DNA of 18,790 bases, from assembly GCA_024278415.1 (NCBI GenBank), contig JAJRTI010000693.1, positions 1 to 18,790 of the forward strand, in the 5' to 3' direction. Of the stretch, positions 194-9,185 are shown one piece after another. How positions within the stretch are numbered: position 1 is the stretch's first letter; each line of letters opens with the position of its first letter. Made by a program: the position numbers and the translations under genes. Source of the DNA: Planctomycetota bacterium. GTDB lineage: Bacteria; Planctomycetota; Brocadiia; JAJRTI01. The notes under the pieces were generated by a model. That model ran no database searches. It saw only the letters and a list, made by a program, of their open reading frames with translations, and was not told where the DNA came from.

Positions 194-1399
194 ATGGCTC
201 GAACGGTCGAGAAGTCGTGGAAAATCTGGCGCGAGGCGCAGCAGCTCATTGGCGCCGGCACGGGCACGCTGTCCAAGCGGCCTATGTACGACGGCGACGA
301 GCCGGGCTGCATCGTGCGCGGCAAGGGCTGCCGCGTGTGGGATGCGGACGGCAACGAATACATCGACTTCCGCAACTCCCTGGGCCCTATCACCCTCGGC
401 TATTGCTACCCCGCGGTCGACGAAGCGATTCGCGCCCAACTCGACCAGGGCATCATCTTCGGCCATCCCCACCCGATCGAAGTCGAGCTGGCGAAGCAGC
501 TCGTCGCGGTGATCCCCTGCGCGGAGAAGGTGCGGTTCCTCAAGACCGGCGGCGAGGCCATGGCCGCGTGCATCCGCCTAGCCCGCGCATTCACCGGCCG
601 GCCGCGCATCGTCTCTTGCGGCTACCACGGCTGGATCAACCGCATCGGCGGCATGGAGGTCGGCATCGTGCCCGCGGTCGCCGAGTACATGACGAGCCTG
701 CCGTACGGCGACATCGACGCGTACACGGACTACCTCGACAAGCACGCGGCCGAGACCGCGGCGGTGACCGTGGCCGCGTCGTACGCGCACATCGGCCCAG
801 ACGACGACTTCCTGCCCAAGCTGCGCGCGCTGACGAAGGAGCGCGGCGTGCTGCTCGTGTACGACGAGATCGTGACCGGCTTCCGTGTGCGCATCGGCGG
901 CATGCAGGAGTACACCGGCGCGGTGCCGGACCTGGCGACGTTCGCCAAGGGCCTGGCCAACGGCATGCCGCTGAGCGTGTACTGCGGCCGCGCGGACATC
1001 ATGGACACGTGCGAGAAGGCCGGCGTGTCGTCCACGTACAGCGGCGACACGCTCGCGCTCGCGGCGTCGCTCGCCACGGTGAAGGAGTATCGCGAGCAGG
1101 GCGTGGTCGAGCACATTTGGGCGCGCGGGCGGGAACTCATCGACGGGATGAACGAAGCGTTCCAACGCCACGGCGTGTCCATGCAGGTCACCGGCTGCCC
1201 GGCCTGCCCGTCCATCGGCGTGCAGGCGCAGGATCCGCTCGCGCGGGGCAACACGCACGAAGCCTTCTGGCGCGCGGCGTACCGCAACGGCGTGAGCCTC
1301 TACAGCGTCTCCTACTGCAACTTCAGCCACTCCGCGGCCGACATCGCCGAAGCGGTCGAGCGGCTCGGCCGAGCAGCGGGGGAGATGGTTAATGGTTGA
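194..1399 (+). CDS. class III PLP-dependent aminotransferase (glutamate-1-semialdehyde aminomutase-like)
   Basis: The 401-aa product is a fold-type I, class III aminotransferase of the HemL-like branch, expected to be a cytosolic PLP enzyme. Visible landmarks are the N-terminal RGKGCRVWDADGNEYIDF stretch (42-59), KTGGEAMA for the cofactor phosphate (117-124), YHGW (144-147), the pyridine-nitrogen aspartate in YDEIVTGF (D224) and the Schiff-base lysine in FAKGLANG (K252). True HemL is usually about 430 aa and reads S-T-G-T-E where this protein has K-T-G-G-E. No haem genes lie nearby, so a role in amino-sugar or other omega-amino chemistry is as likely as haem synthesis. The start is fixed by AAGGAG 8 nt upstream. 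The last codons (M-V-N-G-stop) lie inside the left inverted repeat of the downstream cassette, so the native C-terminus may have been altered. Family call firm, substrate unknown. Confidence 0.88.
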   Translation: MARTVEKSWKIWREAQQLIGAGTGTLSKRPMYDGDEPGCIVRGKGCRVWDADGNEYIDFRNSLGPITLGYCYPAVDEAIRAQLDQGIIFGHPHPIEVELAKQLVAVIPCAEKVRFLKTGGEAMAACIRLARAFTGRPRIVSCGYHGWINRIGGMEVGIVPAVAEYMTSLPYGDIDAYTDYLDKHAAETAAVTVAASYAHIGPDDDFLPKLRALTKERGVLLVYDEIVTGFRVRIGGMQEYTGAVPDLATFAKGLANGMPLSVYCGRADIMDTCEKAGVSSTYSGDTLALAASLATVKEYREQGVVEHIWARGRELIDGMNEAFQRHGVSMQVTGCPACPSIGVQAQDPLARGNTHEAFWRAAYRNGVSLYSVSYCNFSHSAADIAEAVERLGRAAGEMVNG

Positions 1400-1416
1400 T
1401 GGTTCATGGTTAATGG
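1381..1416 (+). repeat. left 36-bp inverted-repeat arm (7-bp periodic)
   Basis: The arm starts GGAGATGG and continues as ATGGTTA, ATGGTTG, ATGGTTC, ATGGTTA, ATGG. It pairs with 1893-1928: 33 positions are Watson-Crick, one of the three remaining would be a U-G wobble in RNA, and two are A-C mismatches. The aminotransferase stop codon (1397-1399) lies inside it. Confidence 0.9.
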
Positions 1417-1428
1417 CGGAGGCCGGTC

Positions 1429-1905
1429 GTGAGCATTAGGCGAGTGGAGGACATGCCCGCCTACAGGGCGCTGTTTGCGTTGGCTGTTCGCGTCGAGAAG
1501 GTCACGCGGAACTTCGGGCCCGATTTCCGGTGGCTTCGGGAGCAATTGCTTCGGTCGTCTGAATCGGCCTGTGCCAACATGACGGAGGGGTTCTATTCGC
1601 AGTGCACCACCGAGTATCGGCAGTGCTTGTTCAGGTCACGGCGTGAGGCGCGAGAGACGGTCACACACCTACAATACGCGGTCGCGGTCAAGCAGCTTGC
1701 CCATGAAGTGGGACAAGCCATCGCGGCTAAGTACGACGACGCACTGGAGCAACTCGCGAAGCTGATCGCCAGCATCGAGAGCAAGCTGAGGCGAGCCGGC
1801 AAGTCCAAGCCGGACAGCGTAAGCGAAGACGAAGCGCCCTACCAAATCGCCGGTGTACAGTTGGGCGACGACGACACCGACATCCCTTCCGCCCATCAAC
1901 CATAA
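1429..1905 (+). CDS. four-helix-bundle protein (S23 / intervening-sequence protein family)
   Basis: The 158-aa product matches the family of short four-helix-bundle proteins first known from 23S rRNA intervening sequences (S23/IVP) and related to the Avd accessory protein of diversity-generating retroelements. Core helices span about residues 5-120. The family signature is visible at 37-54, where REQLLRSSESACANMTEG matches the usual pattern of basic-RSS, then N-x-x-E-G, followed by the amphipathic SRREARETVTHLQYA helix (70-84). Residues 121-158 are an acidic, probably disordered tail; its last residues, H-Q-P, are encoded by the right inverted repeat. The GTG start has GGAGG (1418-1422) 6 nt upstream. 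Codon use (AGG, TTT, TTG, GTT) is less GC-rich than in neighbours, which fits a transferred gene. Biochemical function is unknown; family members may bind nucleic acid. No reverse transcriptase is present, so this is not a retroelement Avd in context. Confidence 0.85.
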   Translation: MSIRRVEDMPAYRALFALAVRVEKVTRNFGPDFRWLREQLLRSSESACANMTEGFYSQCTTEYRQCLFRSRREARETVTHLQYAVAVKQLAHEVGQAIAAKYDDALEQLAKLIASIESKLRRAGKSKPDSVSEDEAPYQIAGVQLGDDDTDIPSAHQP

Positions 1906-1928
1906 ACCATCAGCCATTAACCATCTCC
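1893..1928 (-). repeat. right 36-bp inverted-repeat arm
   Basis: The reverse complement reads GGAGATGG followed by ATGGTTA, ATGGCTG, ATGGTTT, ATGGTTG and ATGG, mirroring the left arm at 1381-1416. The stop codon of the four-helix-bundle gene (1903-1905) lies inside it, and it ends 4 bp before the GTG of the ABC-F gene. Confidence 0.9.
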
Positions 1929-1932
1929 ACGC

Positions 1933-3837
<1,905 letters not shown>

Positions 3838-6442: not shown

Positions 6443-6630
6443 GCGGTGTTGGACGAACGTCTGGCGCCGGCTTCTGACGAGAGCCACGAGCGCGTCCCGC
6501 TCCACCGAGCAGGCGCGCTCGTTTCGCGTTCGCTTCTCGCAGCCGCTGGCGCTCAGTACAACCATTCCTCAAGTTCGTTTAGGCTTTGCCACCCAAGCCA
6601 TTCCAAAGGCGTCTGTCTGGCCGTGATGAC
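6443..6630. other. intergenic sequence, no gene seen
   Basis: The gap between the exported-protein gene and the next start is 351 bp. This first part holds no supported gene, promoter or terminator. On the minus strand a reading frame runs into it from the hairpin repeat at 6631-6776 and ends near 6553, but it has no ribosome site and looks repeat-derived. Confidence 0.4.
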
Positions 6631-6776
6631 GGAATGCTGGAATGGCGGAATAATGGAATGCGCTGCCTCGCCCGGCCGCCATTCCATCATTCCATTCTTC
6701 CAATCTTCCCGCCAGGCTTGGCAGTGCCCAGGGACACTTGCGATCCCTGCACGGATCTGCGGAATGTCGCACTGAG
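6631..6776 (+). repeat. dispersed hairpin repeat, copy A (8-bp units GGAATGAT)
   Basis: The left arm (6631-6660) is made of degenerate 8-bp units related to GGAATGAT and the right arm (6680-6709) carries their complements; about 22 of 30 positions can pair. A tail (6710-6776) follows with CGCCAGGCTTGG and a near-palindrome ATCCCTGCACGGAT. The right arm and tail clearly match copy B at 9032-9165 in the same orientation. Confidence 0.8.
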
Positions 6777-6793
6777 CACATGGGGCCACACCC

Positions 6794-9019
6794 GTGAGAC
6801 TCGCCTCTACCTCTCCTCGCCATTCGGCCGCCGCGGCGGCCGTGTTCTACGCGGTGCTGGCCGTGGTGTGCACCTTCCCGCAGGCTGTGCTGGTGCACGA
6901 CGGGCTGCCGCTCGACCCGGCGGACGGGCAGCCGTACGAAGATCCCTACCTGAACGCGTGGATACTCGGCTGGGGCGCGAGGGCGGCCATCACCCAACCC
7001 CTCCAAATCTTCGACGCGAACGCGTTCTACCCGCGGGCCAACACGCTCGCGTATTCGGACCACATGCTGGGGTATCTGCCGCTGACGATCCCGCTGTTCT
7101 GGCTCACCGGCAACGCGATCCTCCTGCACAACGTGGTCTTGTTGGTCTCGTTTGCGGCCTCTGGGTTTGGCGCGTTCCTGTTGGTGCGGCAACTCGTGGG
7201 CGCGAGCGGGCCGGCGCTCATCGCTGGCATTGTCTATGCCTTCTGCCCGTTCCGTTTTGCGGAATACGGCCACGTGCAGGTGCTGTCCACGCAGTGGATG
7301 CCGCCTGCGCTGTGGTGCATGCACCGCTGGCGGGCGCGGCTTCGGCCCGGCCATCTCATGCCGTGGCGGCCGTACGCCGGCTTCATCGTGTTCGGCGGCA
7401 TGCAGTCCCTGTGCTCCACCTACTTCTCGATCTACTTCCCCCTGTTTGTTGGCTGTTTTGCGGCCGTGGCATTCGTGCTGCGCCGCGAGCGCGGGCGGCT
7501 GCGCAAGGCTACGTGGACGCTTCTTGCGCCAGTCATTTGGACCACGCTCGTGCTGCCGACGCTGCTGCCGTACGTGCGGCTGCGGCAGCAGATGGGCTTC
7601 AAGCGCGACCTGTATCATAACGTGAAGTACTCGGCCGCGCCGGGGAGTTTTTTTTCAACGCCATTGCTGAACCGGCTGTATGGCGCCACGGGCCTCATGC
7701 CGCCGCGCGCGGAAGCGGCGGGGTTCATGGGGTTCGTGACGATGGGTCTTATGGCCGGCGCGGTGGTGTGGCTCGTGCGGGGCCGGCCTAAAGCGGCCGG
7801 CCCTGACGCGGCGGGATGGGGGCCGCGGCGCGCCGGGGAGCGCGAGTGGGCGTGGGTCTACCTGGCGGCGGGCGCGCTCATGGCCGTGCTGGCGATGGGG
7901 CCGCGCATTCGCTGGGGCGGGCAGGCGATCTGCCCAGGCCCGTACATGCTGCTCTACAAGTACGTGCCGGGCTTCGATGGCCTGCGCGCGCCGGGCCGGC
8001 TGCTCATGCTGGTGATGTTGTGTGCCTCCGTGGTGGCCGGCGTTGGGCAGCATCGGCTGTGCCTGGCCGCTGGCCGCGGGCGGCGGCGGTGGCGGTGGCT
8101 TGCGCTGTGGGCGCCCCTAGCGGTGCTGCTTGTGGAGTTCGCGGCGTTCCCGATTCCGCTGACACAAGTGGCCGTGGGCGACCGCATCCCGCCGGTCTAC
8201 AAGTGGCTCGCCGAGCAGCCGCCGGGGTTGCGCATCGTCGAGGCGCCGCTCGACCTAGGCATCGAGGACATGCGCCGCATGTACTACTCGACTTACCATT
8301 GGGATAGGATCGTCAACGGCAAGAGCGGGTTCCGGCCGCCCGAATGCACGGCCGCGTTCCTCAGCTACGCGGGCCCGACGCGCCTGCTCGCGTCGCTCAT
8401 GGCCCAGATGGACATCGACTACGTGATCGTGAACGAGGACATGATGCCGGGCATCACCAAGATGTACGCGCAGGAGCCGTGGTGCAAGCGGGTGCGGGTG
8501 TTCGGCCCGGTCACCGTCTTCCGCTTCCACGGCGAGCGTGTGGGCCGGCCGCGGCTGAAGGTGCGCGCAGAGGACTTGGCGCCGGTCCCATCGTCGGCGT
8601 GGCGCGCCAGTGCGAACGTGAACCCGGAGTTGGCCGCGCTCGTGCAGGACGGGTCCCCCGAGACGGTGTGGCAGACCGGCGAGAACCAGCAGGGAGGCAT
8701 GCAGTTCACCATGACGCTCGACCGGCCGCGGCCGGTGCGGCTGATCCGCGTGGGCTTCGGCCTCCACGGCGACGAAGTGCCCTGGGCCATGTCCCTGTCC
8801 GCGAGCCCCGATGGCAAGACGTGGCGCACGGTCTACGGCCCCGACAGTTTCCGCGACATGCTCGCCTGGCTCTACTGGTCGGCCCTGGAGAACCCGCGCA
8901 ACCCGGAGCTGGACCTCCCGCTTCCGCCAGGGTCGTGGCGCGCGATCCGGATGGAGTTGCTCGGTGGGGGGTACGCCGGCTGGGTCATGGCGGAGGTGGA
9001 GCTGTTCGAGACGCCGTGA
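6794..9019 (+). CDS. GT-C-like polytopic membrane protein with C-terminal discoidin-like domain
   Basis: The 741-aa protein has an N-terminal helix (12-35), then an outer loop with acidic Y-E-D-P-Y-L-N-A-W (48-56), as expected for the catalytic loop of GT-C glycosyltransferases. About ten further membrane segments run between 95 and 455. A soluble part (456-590) is followed by a region (598-741) that resembles an F5/8 type C (discoidin) fold: L-V-Q-D-G-S-P-E-T-V-W (616-626), S-A-S-P-D-G-K-T-W (669-677) and a closing A-E-V-E-L-F (733-738). The layout suggests a sugar transferase or polymer-handling protein whose C-terminal domain binds carbohydrate outside the membrane. GTG start with no good Shine-Dalgarno site, 17 bp after repeat copy A. 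Residues 330-338 are encoded by a perfect 9-bp inverted repeat. Fold likely, activity inferred. Confidence 0.72.
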   Translation: MRLASTSPRHSAAAAAVFYAVLAVVCTFPQAVLVHDGLPLDPADGQPYEDPYLNAWILGWGARAAITQPLQIFDANAFYPRANTLAYSDHMLGYLPLTIPLFWLTGNAILLHNVVLLVSFAASGFGAFLLVRQLVGASGPALIAGIVYAFCPFRFAEYGHVQVLSTQWMPPALWCMHRWRARLRPGHLMPWRPYAGFIVFGGMQSLCSTYFSIYFPLFVGCFAAVAFVLRRERGRLRKATWTLLAPVIWTTLVLPTLLPYVRLRQQMGFKRDLYHNVKYSAAPGSFFSTPLLNRLYGATGLMPPRAEAAGFMGFVTMGLMAGAVVWLVRGRPKAAGPDAAGWGPRRAGEREWAWVYLAAGALMAVLAMGPRIRWGGQAICPGPYMLLYKYVPGFDGLRAPGRLLMLVMLCASVVAGVGQHRLCLAAGRGRRRWRWLALWAPLAVLLVEFAAFPIPLTQVAVGDRIPPVYKWLAEQPPGLRIVEAPLDLGIEDMRRMYYSTYHWDRIVNGKSGFRPPECTAAFLSYAGPTRLLASLMAQMDIDYVIVNEDMMPGITKMYAQEPWCKRVRVFGPVTVFRFHGERVGRPRLKVRAEDLAPVPSSAWRASANVNPELAALVQDGSPETVWQTGENQQGGMQFTMTLDRPRPVRLIRVGFGLHGDEVPWAMSLSASPDGKTWRTVYGPDSFRDMLAWLYWSALENPRNPELDLPLPPGSWRAIRMELLGGGYAGWVMAEVELFETP

Positions 9020-9031
9020 GGGCGGAGTGAA

Positions 9032-9165
9032 GGAATGATGGAATGATGGAATGATGGAAGGCGCGGTCTTGTCCGAGAGCCACTCCATCATTCCACTCTT
9101 CCAATCTTCCCGCCAAGCCCACCAAACGTGCGATCCGTGCACGGATTTGTGCACTGTCGCCATGA
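9032..9165 (+). repeat. dispersed hairpin repeat, copy B (8-bp units GGAATGAT)
   Basis: Three perfect tandem GGAATGAT units (9032-9055) are followed by a 20-bp spacer and a right arm (9081-9110) of complementary units. A tail contains CGCCAAGCCC and the perfect 14-bp palindrome ATCCGTGCACGGAT (9132-9145). It lies between convergent genes, where its hairpin could serve as a two-way terminator, although neither side has a clear U-tract. Confidence 0.85.
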
Positions 9166-9185
9166 GCCGTACCCGCCCCGCGCCC

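Follow-up and report, generated by a model that had tools for sequence, protein, structure and literature searches.

The locus at positions 1381 to 1928 of the window, as the whole analysed stretch of 18,790 nucleotides from a Planctomycetota bacterium is called here, is probably one copy of an insertable DNA element in which an IVP/S23 gene lies between inverted end arrays of tandem units, a reading that rests on comparison of sequences. Such comparison shows that gene and arrays occur as a unit, with repeat units that vary from element to element and that are common to close proteins, including some at unrelated loci, and that related species can have the element or lack it at one and the same junction.

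The window locus

The features of the locus and its surroundings are the following.

194..1399, + strand: class-III aminotransferase (PF00202), upstream neighbour, with its stop codon from the left arm
1381..1416, + strand: left arm of tandem ATGGTTN heptamers, including the aminotransferase stop codon at 1397-1399
1418..1422, + strand: GGAGG resembling a Shine-Dalgarno site, located just inside the left arm and 6 nt 5' of the GTG start
1429..1905, + strand: IVP / S23 / four-helix-bundle gene, 158 aa, GTG start, TAA stop
1893..1928, - strand: right arm, the same heptamers inverted, ending 4 nt 5' of the ABC-F ORF start at 1933
1933..3837, + strand: ABC-F ATPase (NF000355, 476 bits), downstream neighbour
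6626..6709, no strand assigned: gene-less inverted array of ~8-nt units, a candidate non-autonomous relative
9024..9110, no strand assigned: another inverted array without a gene, made of GGAATGAT octamers, with a similarity of 82% to the first over 91 nt

The two arms of 36 nt are spaced 476 nt apart and are complementary at 33 of 36 positions (92%), the left one being composed of ATGGTTA ATGGTTG ATGGTTC ATGGTTA ATGG. A total of 376 inverted pairs were listed for the window; in the group of the 25 longest, this one is the best matched, the other 24 (27-40 nt) reaching 70-82%. Its score of 60 corresponds to a p of 0.002 against a null of cross-paired flanks from 31 IVP genes. A cruder self-inversion score is 52 for the window compared with 31-48 in 10 block shuffles, which by itself amounts to a modest excess. 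An earlier note on this DNA, made from the letters alone, had described 36-bp inverted arms of ATGGTTN units around a four-helix-bundle gene, and this description holds, with the ORF at 1429-1905 matching PF05635 (23S_rRNA_IVP) at 51.1 bits (cut-off 33.8) and TIGR02436 at 51.3 bits (cut-off 24). The note's Shine-Dalgarno site just inside the stem corresponds to the GGAGG at 1418-1422, its remark that codon use is less GC-rich than in the neighbours agrees with a GC3 of 0.753 for the ORF compared with 0.92 and 0.874 for the neighbouring genes, and the arms do pair when the region is folded as RNA, with a stability that exceeds that of all 100 shuffles (z -5.84). New with respect to that note is the position of two stop codons, as the TGA of the aminotransferase (1397-1399) lies inside the left arm and the TAA of the IVP ORF (1903-1905) inside the right one.

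An AlphaFold model of the protein consists of four helices with a mean pLDDT of 86.9, and in Foldseek it matches the solved S23 proteins 2gsc and 2rld, with weaker matches (E-values 0.07-0.4) to Avd (4dwl) and to Avd in the reverse transcriptase complex of a diversity-generating retroelement (8ub7). PF05635 is the sole domain match of the protein and a HUH/Y1 transposase domain was not found; the element consists of a single ORF with no transposase, recombinase or recombinase fold of its own, and the ORF list and domain profiles of the window contain no reverse transcriptase match adjoining the IVP gene. No Rfam match was obtained in the window, which places the element outside a 23S rRNA gene.

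The last residues of close homologues of the window aminotransferase are unlike those encoded here. For the junction itself, the nearest genome found was that of the Armatimonadota locus L046 (G006), which has an aminotransferase 73% identical to that of the window, with no ABC-F match within 1.5 kb on either side of it. Among the 120 relatives listed for the window subfamily, the C-terminus is HxP in 15 proteins and NH or NHx in 11. These tails are peptides that a heptamer array could encode, a hint consistent with units that follow the protein. Further along the window, the blocks at 6627-6777 and 9028-9167, which are 82% identical over 91 nt and 81% identical over 42 nt, flank a 741-aa ORF (6794-9019) and resemble gene-less elements with another unit.

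Enclosure of IVP genes and co-variation of units with the protein

Enclosure of PF05635 genes by inverted arrays was scored by aligning the upstream 350 nt to the reverse complement of the downstream 350 nt, with a threshold of 32 set at the 99% level of a cross-pair null, in which flanks of different IVP genes are paired; since some of the paired flanks have units in common, this null is conservative. The first sample, the window together with 118 loci, came to 119 sequences, and a purpose-built HMM found the gene in 117 of them. The first and fourth sets of this sample came from genomes picked for an ATGGTTN array, and the second and third from the phyla around such genomes. In total 79 of the 117 genes are enclosed (26/30, 23/30, 15/27 and 14/29 in the four sets, plus the window), compared with 1 of 29 control PIN-domain genes, a small set from Chloroflexi-type genomes of one phylum (30 fetched, one incomplete gene dropped); the Fisher P against all 117 IVP genes is 8e-11. 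A second sample of 84 genes, from 80 further stretches of nine genomes, reached a score of at least 32 in 11/11 cases in G224, 9/10 in G229, 9/11 in G194, 4/5 in G202, 3/3 in G014, 2/4 in G148, 10/20 in G158, 6/13 in G231 and 1/7 in G019. Overall, 130 of 202 distinct PF05635 genes are enclosed and 72 fall under the threshold. As the loci were the best-ranked family matches, many of them in draft genomes, this fraction may be high for strong members of the family.

Matches to PF05635 were found in 15 of 16 array-bearing genomes, in 78 of 115 genomes of one phylum, in 31 of 81 Chloroflexi-type genomes and in all 21 array-bearing Bacteroidota-type genomes. At times the genes are clustered, with two to four copies in 3-10 kb (G158:C33 at 87105 and 89530; G014:C135 at 5064 and 8029; G231:C20 at 278468-287968). 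With one query each, 11 of 72,556 plasmid records matched and none of 50,697 phage records did. Four named complete cyanobacterial plasmids were read, of which three pass the enclosure test and the fourth scores 30; in two cyanobacterial plasmids (L450 and L451) the four-helix-bundle genes adjoin tyrosine recombinase genes.

The elements have a common anatomy. The best unit period is 7 nt in 98 of 129 elements, 8 nt in 21 and another in 10, and the median arm measures 35.5 nt (n=130), or about five units. Read in the sense of the gene, the left arm has more G than C in 120 of 129 elements, less in 6 and as much in 3. Where a neighbour was found, it is co-directional with the IVP gene in 95 of 115 cases upstream and in 94 of 111 downstream, the corresponding values for the PIN controls being 16/28 and 17/26. 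Comparison across loci shows that, where the upstream gene is co-directional, its stop codon usually marks the beginning of the left arm, with no more than 15 nt between the stop and the outer arm edge in 73 of 95 cases; this position is a description and not proof of a target, because compact operons alone favour short distances. The gene itself is under purifying selection, judging from dN/dS values of 0.04-0.16 in 8 of 12 IVP pairs (three were saturated and one gave no value).

Units differ visibly between the IVP copies of one genome. Common units were found in 17 of 27 protein pairs with at least 70% identity, comprising 12 of 12 pairs with homologous flanks and 5 of 15 with unrelated flanks, compared with 55 of 7424 pairs below 45% identity with unrelated flanks; the other 10 of the 15 close pairs with unrelated flanks are without common units. 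In one pair of loci from two Flavobacterium species (L285/L286) both arms have changed alike (CTGA/CATA and an additional T), which hints at conversion between arms. Concerted arm evolution is not claimed, the mirrored change being absent in L276/L283 and L273/L278.

Presence, absence and gene-less arrays

Five IVP sites of the Flavobacterium genome G224 were compared with two other genomes, giving ten sites. At all ten the flanks align to within 11 nt of the arm edges; three sites have an IVP gene, and at the other seven the insert lacks the gene, measures 52-156 nt and has a self-inverted score of 29-66. One of the G224 junctions has a match in all 41 genomes of the genus that were searched; of the 30 in which it was read, eight are empty (0-12 nt), 15 have gene-less inserts of 49-129 nt, five have the gene and two were left uncalled. 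The self-inverted score, which has no null here, is at least 32 in 8 of these 15 inserts and 12-27 in the other seven. Judged by eye from the alleles of this junction, any target-site duplication would be 1-2 nt at most. The IVP copies at the junction are mostly mutual nearest relatives, so that inheritance with loss may explain much of its pattern. At two further junctions (L271/L279 and L284/L287) sister species have clearly different IVP copies with different units. The flanks of the L268 junction (G224) resemble, by eye, a guanylate kinase and nicotinate mononucleotide adenylyltransferase pair; a table in the accessible part of PMC5524665 lists guanylate kinase, four helix bundle protein and nicotinate mononucleotide adenylyltransferase for two Flavobacterium columnare strains.

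In the genome collection, at least 118 loci from many phyla were found to have ATGGTTN arrays. IVP ORFs are present in four of the 118 listed, with a distance from the array of no more than 300 nt in one case (1/118), for which reason the IVP gene was rejected as the usual neighbour of such arrays. An inverted partner lies within 650 nt in 29 of the 118 listed loci, and in 29 of 29 the G-rich strand runs inward, the same polarity as around the IVP gene; random segments of ATGGTTN loci, arrays included, reach the inverted-partner score in 64 of 590 draws. Nine of the hairpins have wide gaps, one of them with an IVP gene (L064) and the others without a clear gene by eye.

In genome G194, a strict count over 400 kb at periods of 4-15 gave 17 arrays of period 7, 7 of period 8, multiples and 4 others; periods 4, 5, 6, 9, 11 and 12 were absent, and one block-shuffled copy gave no array at all. 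At a looser cut there are 26 arrays, 24 of them away from IVP genes, and 19 of these 24 match the arms of the genome's own elements, compared with 0-9 of 24 for the arms of eight other genomes. Comparison shows, for at least one genome, scattered gene-less arrays with the units of the resident elements. The same strict count over 400 kb of G229 gave two arrays of period 7, one of period 8, two of period 6 and two of period 12, without dominance of periods 7 and 8; its gene-less arrays match its own arms in 4 of 11 cases, those of a sister species in 5 of 11 and those of an unrelated genome in 4 of 11, that is, unrelated arms as often as its own, so that G229 gives no support. The gene-less ATGGTTN arrays look like parts of the same system and not like independent repeats.

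Readings of the element and its relation to known systems

The published systems compared here are cited from the accessible parts of the papers concerned. Intervening sequences (IVSs) of 23S rRNA share with the window element the protein family, inverted-repeat arms, heptamers before the ORF and a length of about 430-570 nt (PMC4990558). One classical IVS has tandem heptameric repeats 5' of an S23 ORF and a stem that is cut by RNase III, and a Xanthomonas member of the S23 family is a homopentamer (PMC4990558); rRNA insertions of CPR bacteria also contain IVP genes (PMC11270868). The window copy has the inverted-repeat stem and the IVP/S23 ORF but differs in lying outside rRNA, as the sampled copies mostly do, between protein genes; units that vary between elements and co-vary with the protein, as well as gene-less copies, further set the present elements apart. 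A 23S motif occurs in 10 of 191 loci, and of nine checked one (L129) has an Rfam rRNA match, its IVP gene and AGAGGAC-type arms being located inside bacterial 23S rRNA (1752.7 bits). Together with the heptamers of the classical IVS, L129 makes an IVS with an IVP gene look like such an element placed within an rRNA gene.

The arms could be an RNA stem that is cut by RNase III to release the ORF loop, with complementarity selected in the RNA, and the stable stem of the window region (z -5.84), the cleavage of the classical IVS with heptamers and S23 ORF by RNase III (PMC4990558) and the co-directional upstream gene (95/115 compared with 16/28 for PIN controls) would be in keeping with this. However, the differences between arms are of the A-C type in 170 cases and of the G-U type in 122 (P 0.006), and owing to this lack of a G-U excess the RNA stem is thought not to be the part maintained; as RNA processing alone would also leave the polarity, the unit-protein co-variation and the gene-less copies unexplained, we regard such an RNA-level unit as quite improbable. 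Alternatively, the arrays may be ordinary slippage-prone repeats at gene ends, with IVP genes settling in existing hairpins that they neither make nor move. In line with this, 117 of the 118 listed ATGGTTN loci have no IVP gene within 300 nt, and at one site one species has an IVP element where another has a gene-less array with a different unit. Against it stand the common units in 5 of 15 close pairs with unrelated flanks compared with 55 of 7424 distant ones, and the G194 gene-less arrays, 19 of 24 of which have units of resident elements; this explanation appears unlikely.

The IVP protein could also be an Avd-like helper of a reverse transcriptase or Y1 (HUH) transposase encoded elsewhere in the genome. 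PF05635 and Avd are homologous (PMC10053308), the window model shares the four-helix fold with Avd, weakly matching 4dwl and 8ub7 (E 0.07-0.4), and in 81 Chloroflexi-group genomes a reverse transcriptase occurs in 19 of 31 genomes with IVP compared with 17 of 50 without, the counts for Y1 being identical. In contrast to Avd, the window IVP gene has no reverse transcriptase beside it, nor is one required in the genome: G158 has 22 IVP matches and no reverse transcriptase, and G011 nine matches with neither reverse transcriptase nor Y1 (E <= 0.001; drafts). A required partner of either kind in the same genome is unsupported by these IVP-rich genomes, and a mover of this type seems very unlikely. 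Three weak PF05635 matches (G139:C110, G200:C15 and G210:C4) lie about 1 kb or less from a reverse transcriptase, as expected for Avd.

For the preferred reading, an insertable element made of gene and arrays, the closest working analogue is the layout of REPtrons, in which a protein gene likewise lies near cognate repeats with many gene-less repeats elsewhere (PMC8266576); the gene-less REPs are thought to be mobilised in trans by TnpA-REP (RAYT) (PMC8266576). The IVP protein differs in lacking a HUH/Y1 domain, and its repeats are tandem heptamers, not REP palindromes with GTAG; cognate repeats with dispersed gene-less copies were found as a layout only, in related genomes. Presence and absence at an orthologous site, as in transposons with terminal inverted repeats, was found for the related Flavobacterium element. 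Xanthomonas has convergent, intergenic heptamer arrays too, namely inverted GGGAATC repeats with 70 and 75 convergent pairs in two genomes, mostly of four units and with a mean distance of 28 nt to the next 5' ORF, which are described as G-quadruplex repeats with no linked protein, unlike the IVP elements, and as generally apart from mobile elements (PMC4692102); the accessible text of that paper has no mention of xcc0516, 'four helix' or S23. The same source reports few heptamer pairs in Nostoc and an over-representation of heptamer repeats in bacterial genomes (PMC4692102), and heptamer direct repeats are present in Beggiatoaceae (PMC4679880). The IVS heptamers, the Xanthomonas pairs, the Beggiatoaceae repeats, the IVP insertions of CPR bacteria and the IVP-Avd homology are already known piecemeal; literature linking PF05635 genes outside rRNA to heptamer arrays was not found in a search of openly accessible published papers.

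What the earlier note had suggested for the wider setting fared unevenly. Its IVS-related cassette outside rRNA is recovered, the layout surrounding 130 of 202 PF05635 genes and L129 having the same build in 23S. Of its mobile or IVS-like unit, the insertable cassette stands, given the empty and filled alleles at one Flavobacterium junction, but the RNA stem as the maintained part does not (170 A-C, 122 G-U). The note had also held that repeats occurring independently of the gene would argue against a cassette, and this is partly what was found, with an IVP gene within 300 nt at 1 of 118 listed loci; but the polarity (29/29) and the G194 arrays (19/24) suggest one system.

As to mechanism, the IVP protein, whose family has been solved as a ring of five four-helix bundles, may bind several tandem units together, perhaps one unit per subunit and on a single strand; a ring reading tandem units would fit arrays of about five units as well as their fixed polarity and the way units co-vary with the protein. 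Recognition of the units could cause the element to spread or be maintained and could act likewise, in trans, on the gene-less hairpins, as has been proposed for REPs and TnpA-REP. Cutting and copying would fall to host enzymes, with a step from recognition to movement that we infer, and an rRNA IVS with an IVP gene would be the same element landed in a 23S gene. The broader proposal, that these elements form a widespread, unrecognised mobile class whose ring protein reads its own heptamers and mobilises or maintains them in trans, that they are thus a main source of the heptamer excess noted in bacterial genomes and that IVSs with IVP genes are 23S landings, is advanced tentatively, at somewhat less than even chances. 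Against an element speak the lack of a match in the phage records and the 11 matches in 72,556 plasmid records, unlike many transposons; the missing recombinase fold, the 72 of 202 genes under the threshold, the 10 of 15 close pairs without common units, the G229 result and the general separation of the Xanthomonas heptamers from mobile elements (PMC4692102) count against it too.

If the element reading is right, the purpose of S23/IVP proteins and of rRNA IVSs and the excess of heptamers in bacteria become testable together and may share one answer, in the form of a protein with a cognate repeat of its own, inserting between genes. Furthermore, the way in which units co-vary with the protein would provide natural specificity pairs for how a four-helix ring reads nucleic acid, which bears on Avd as well.
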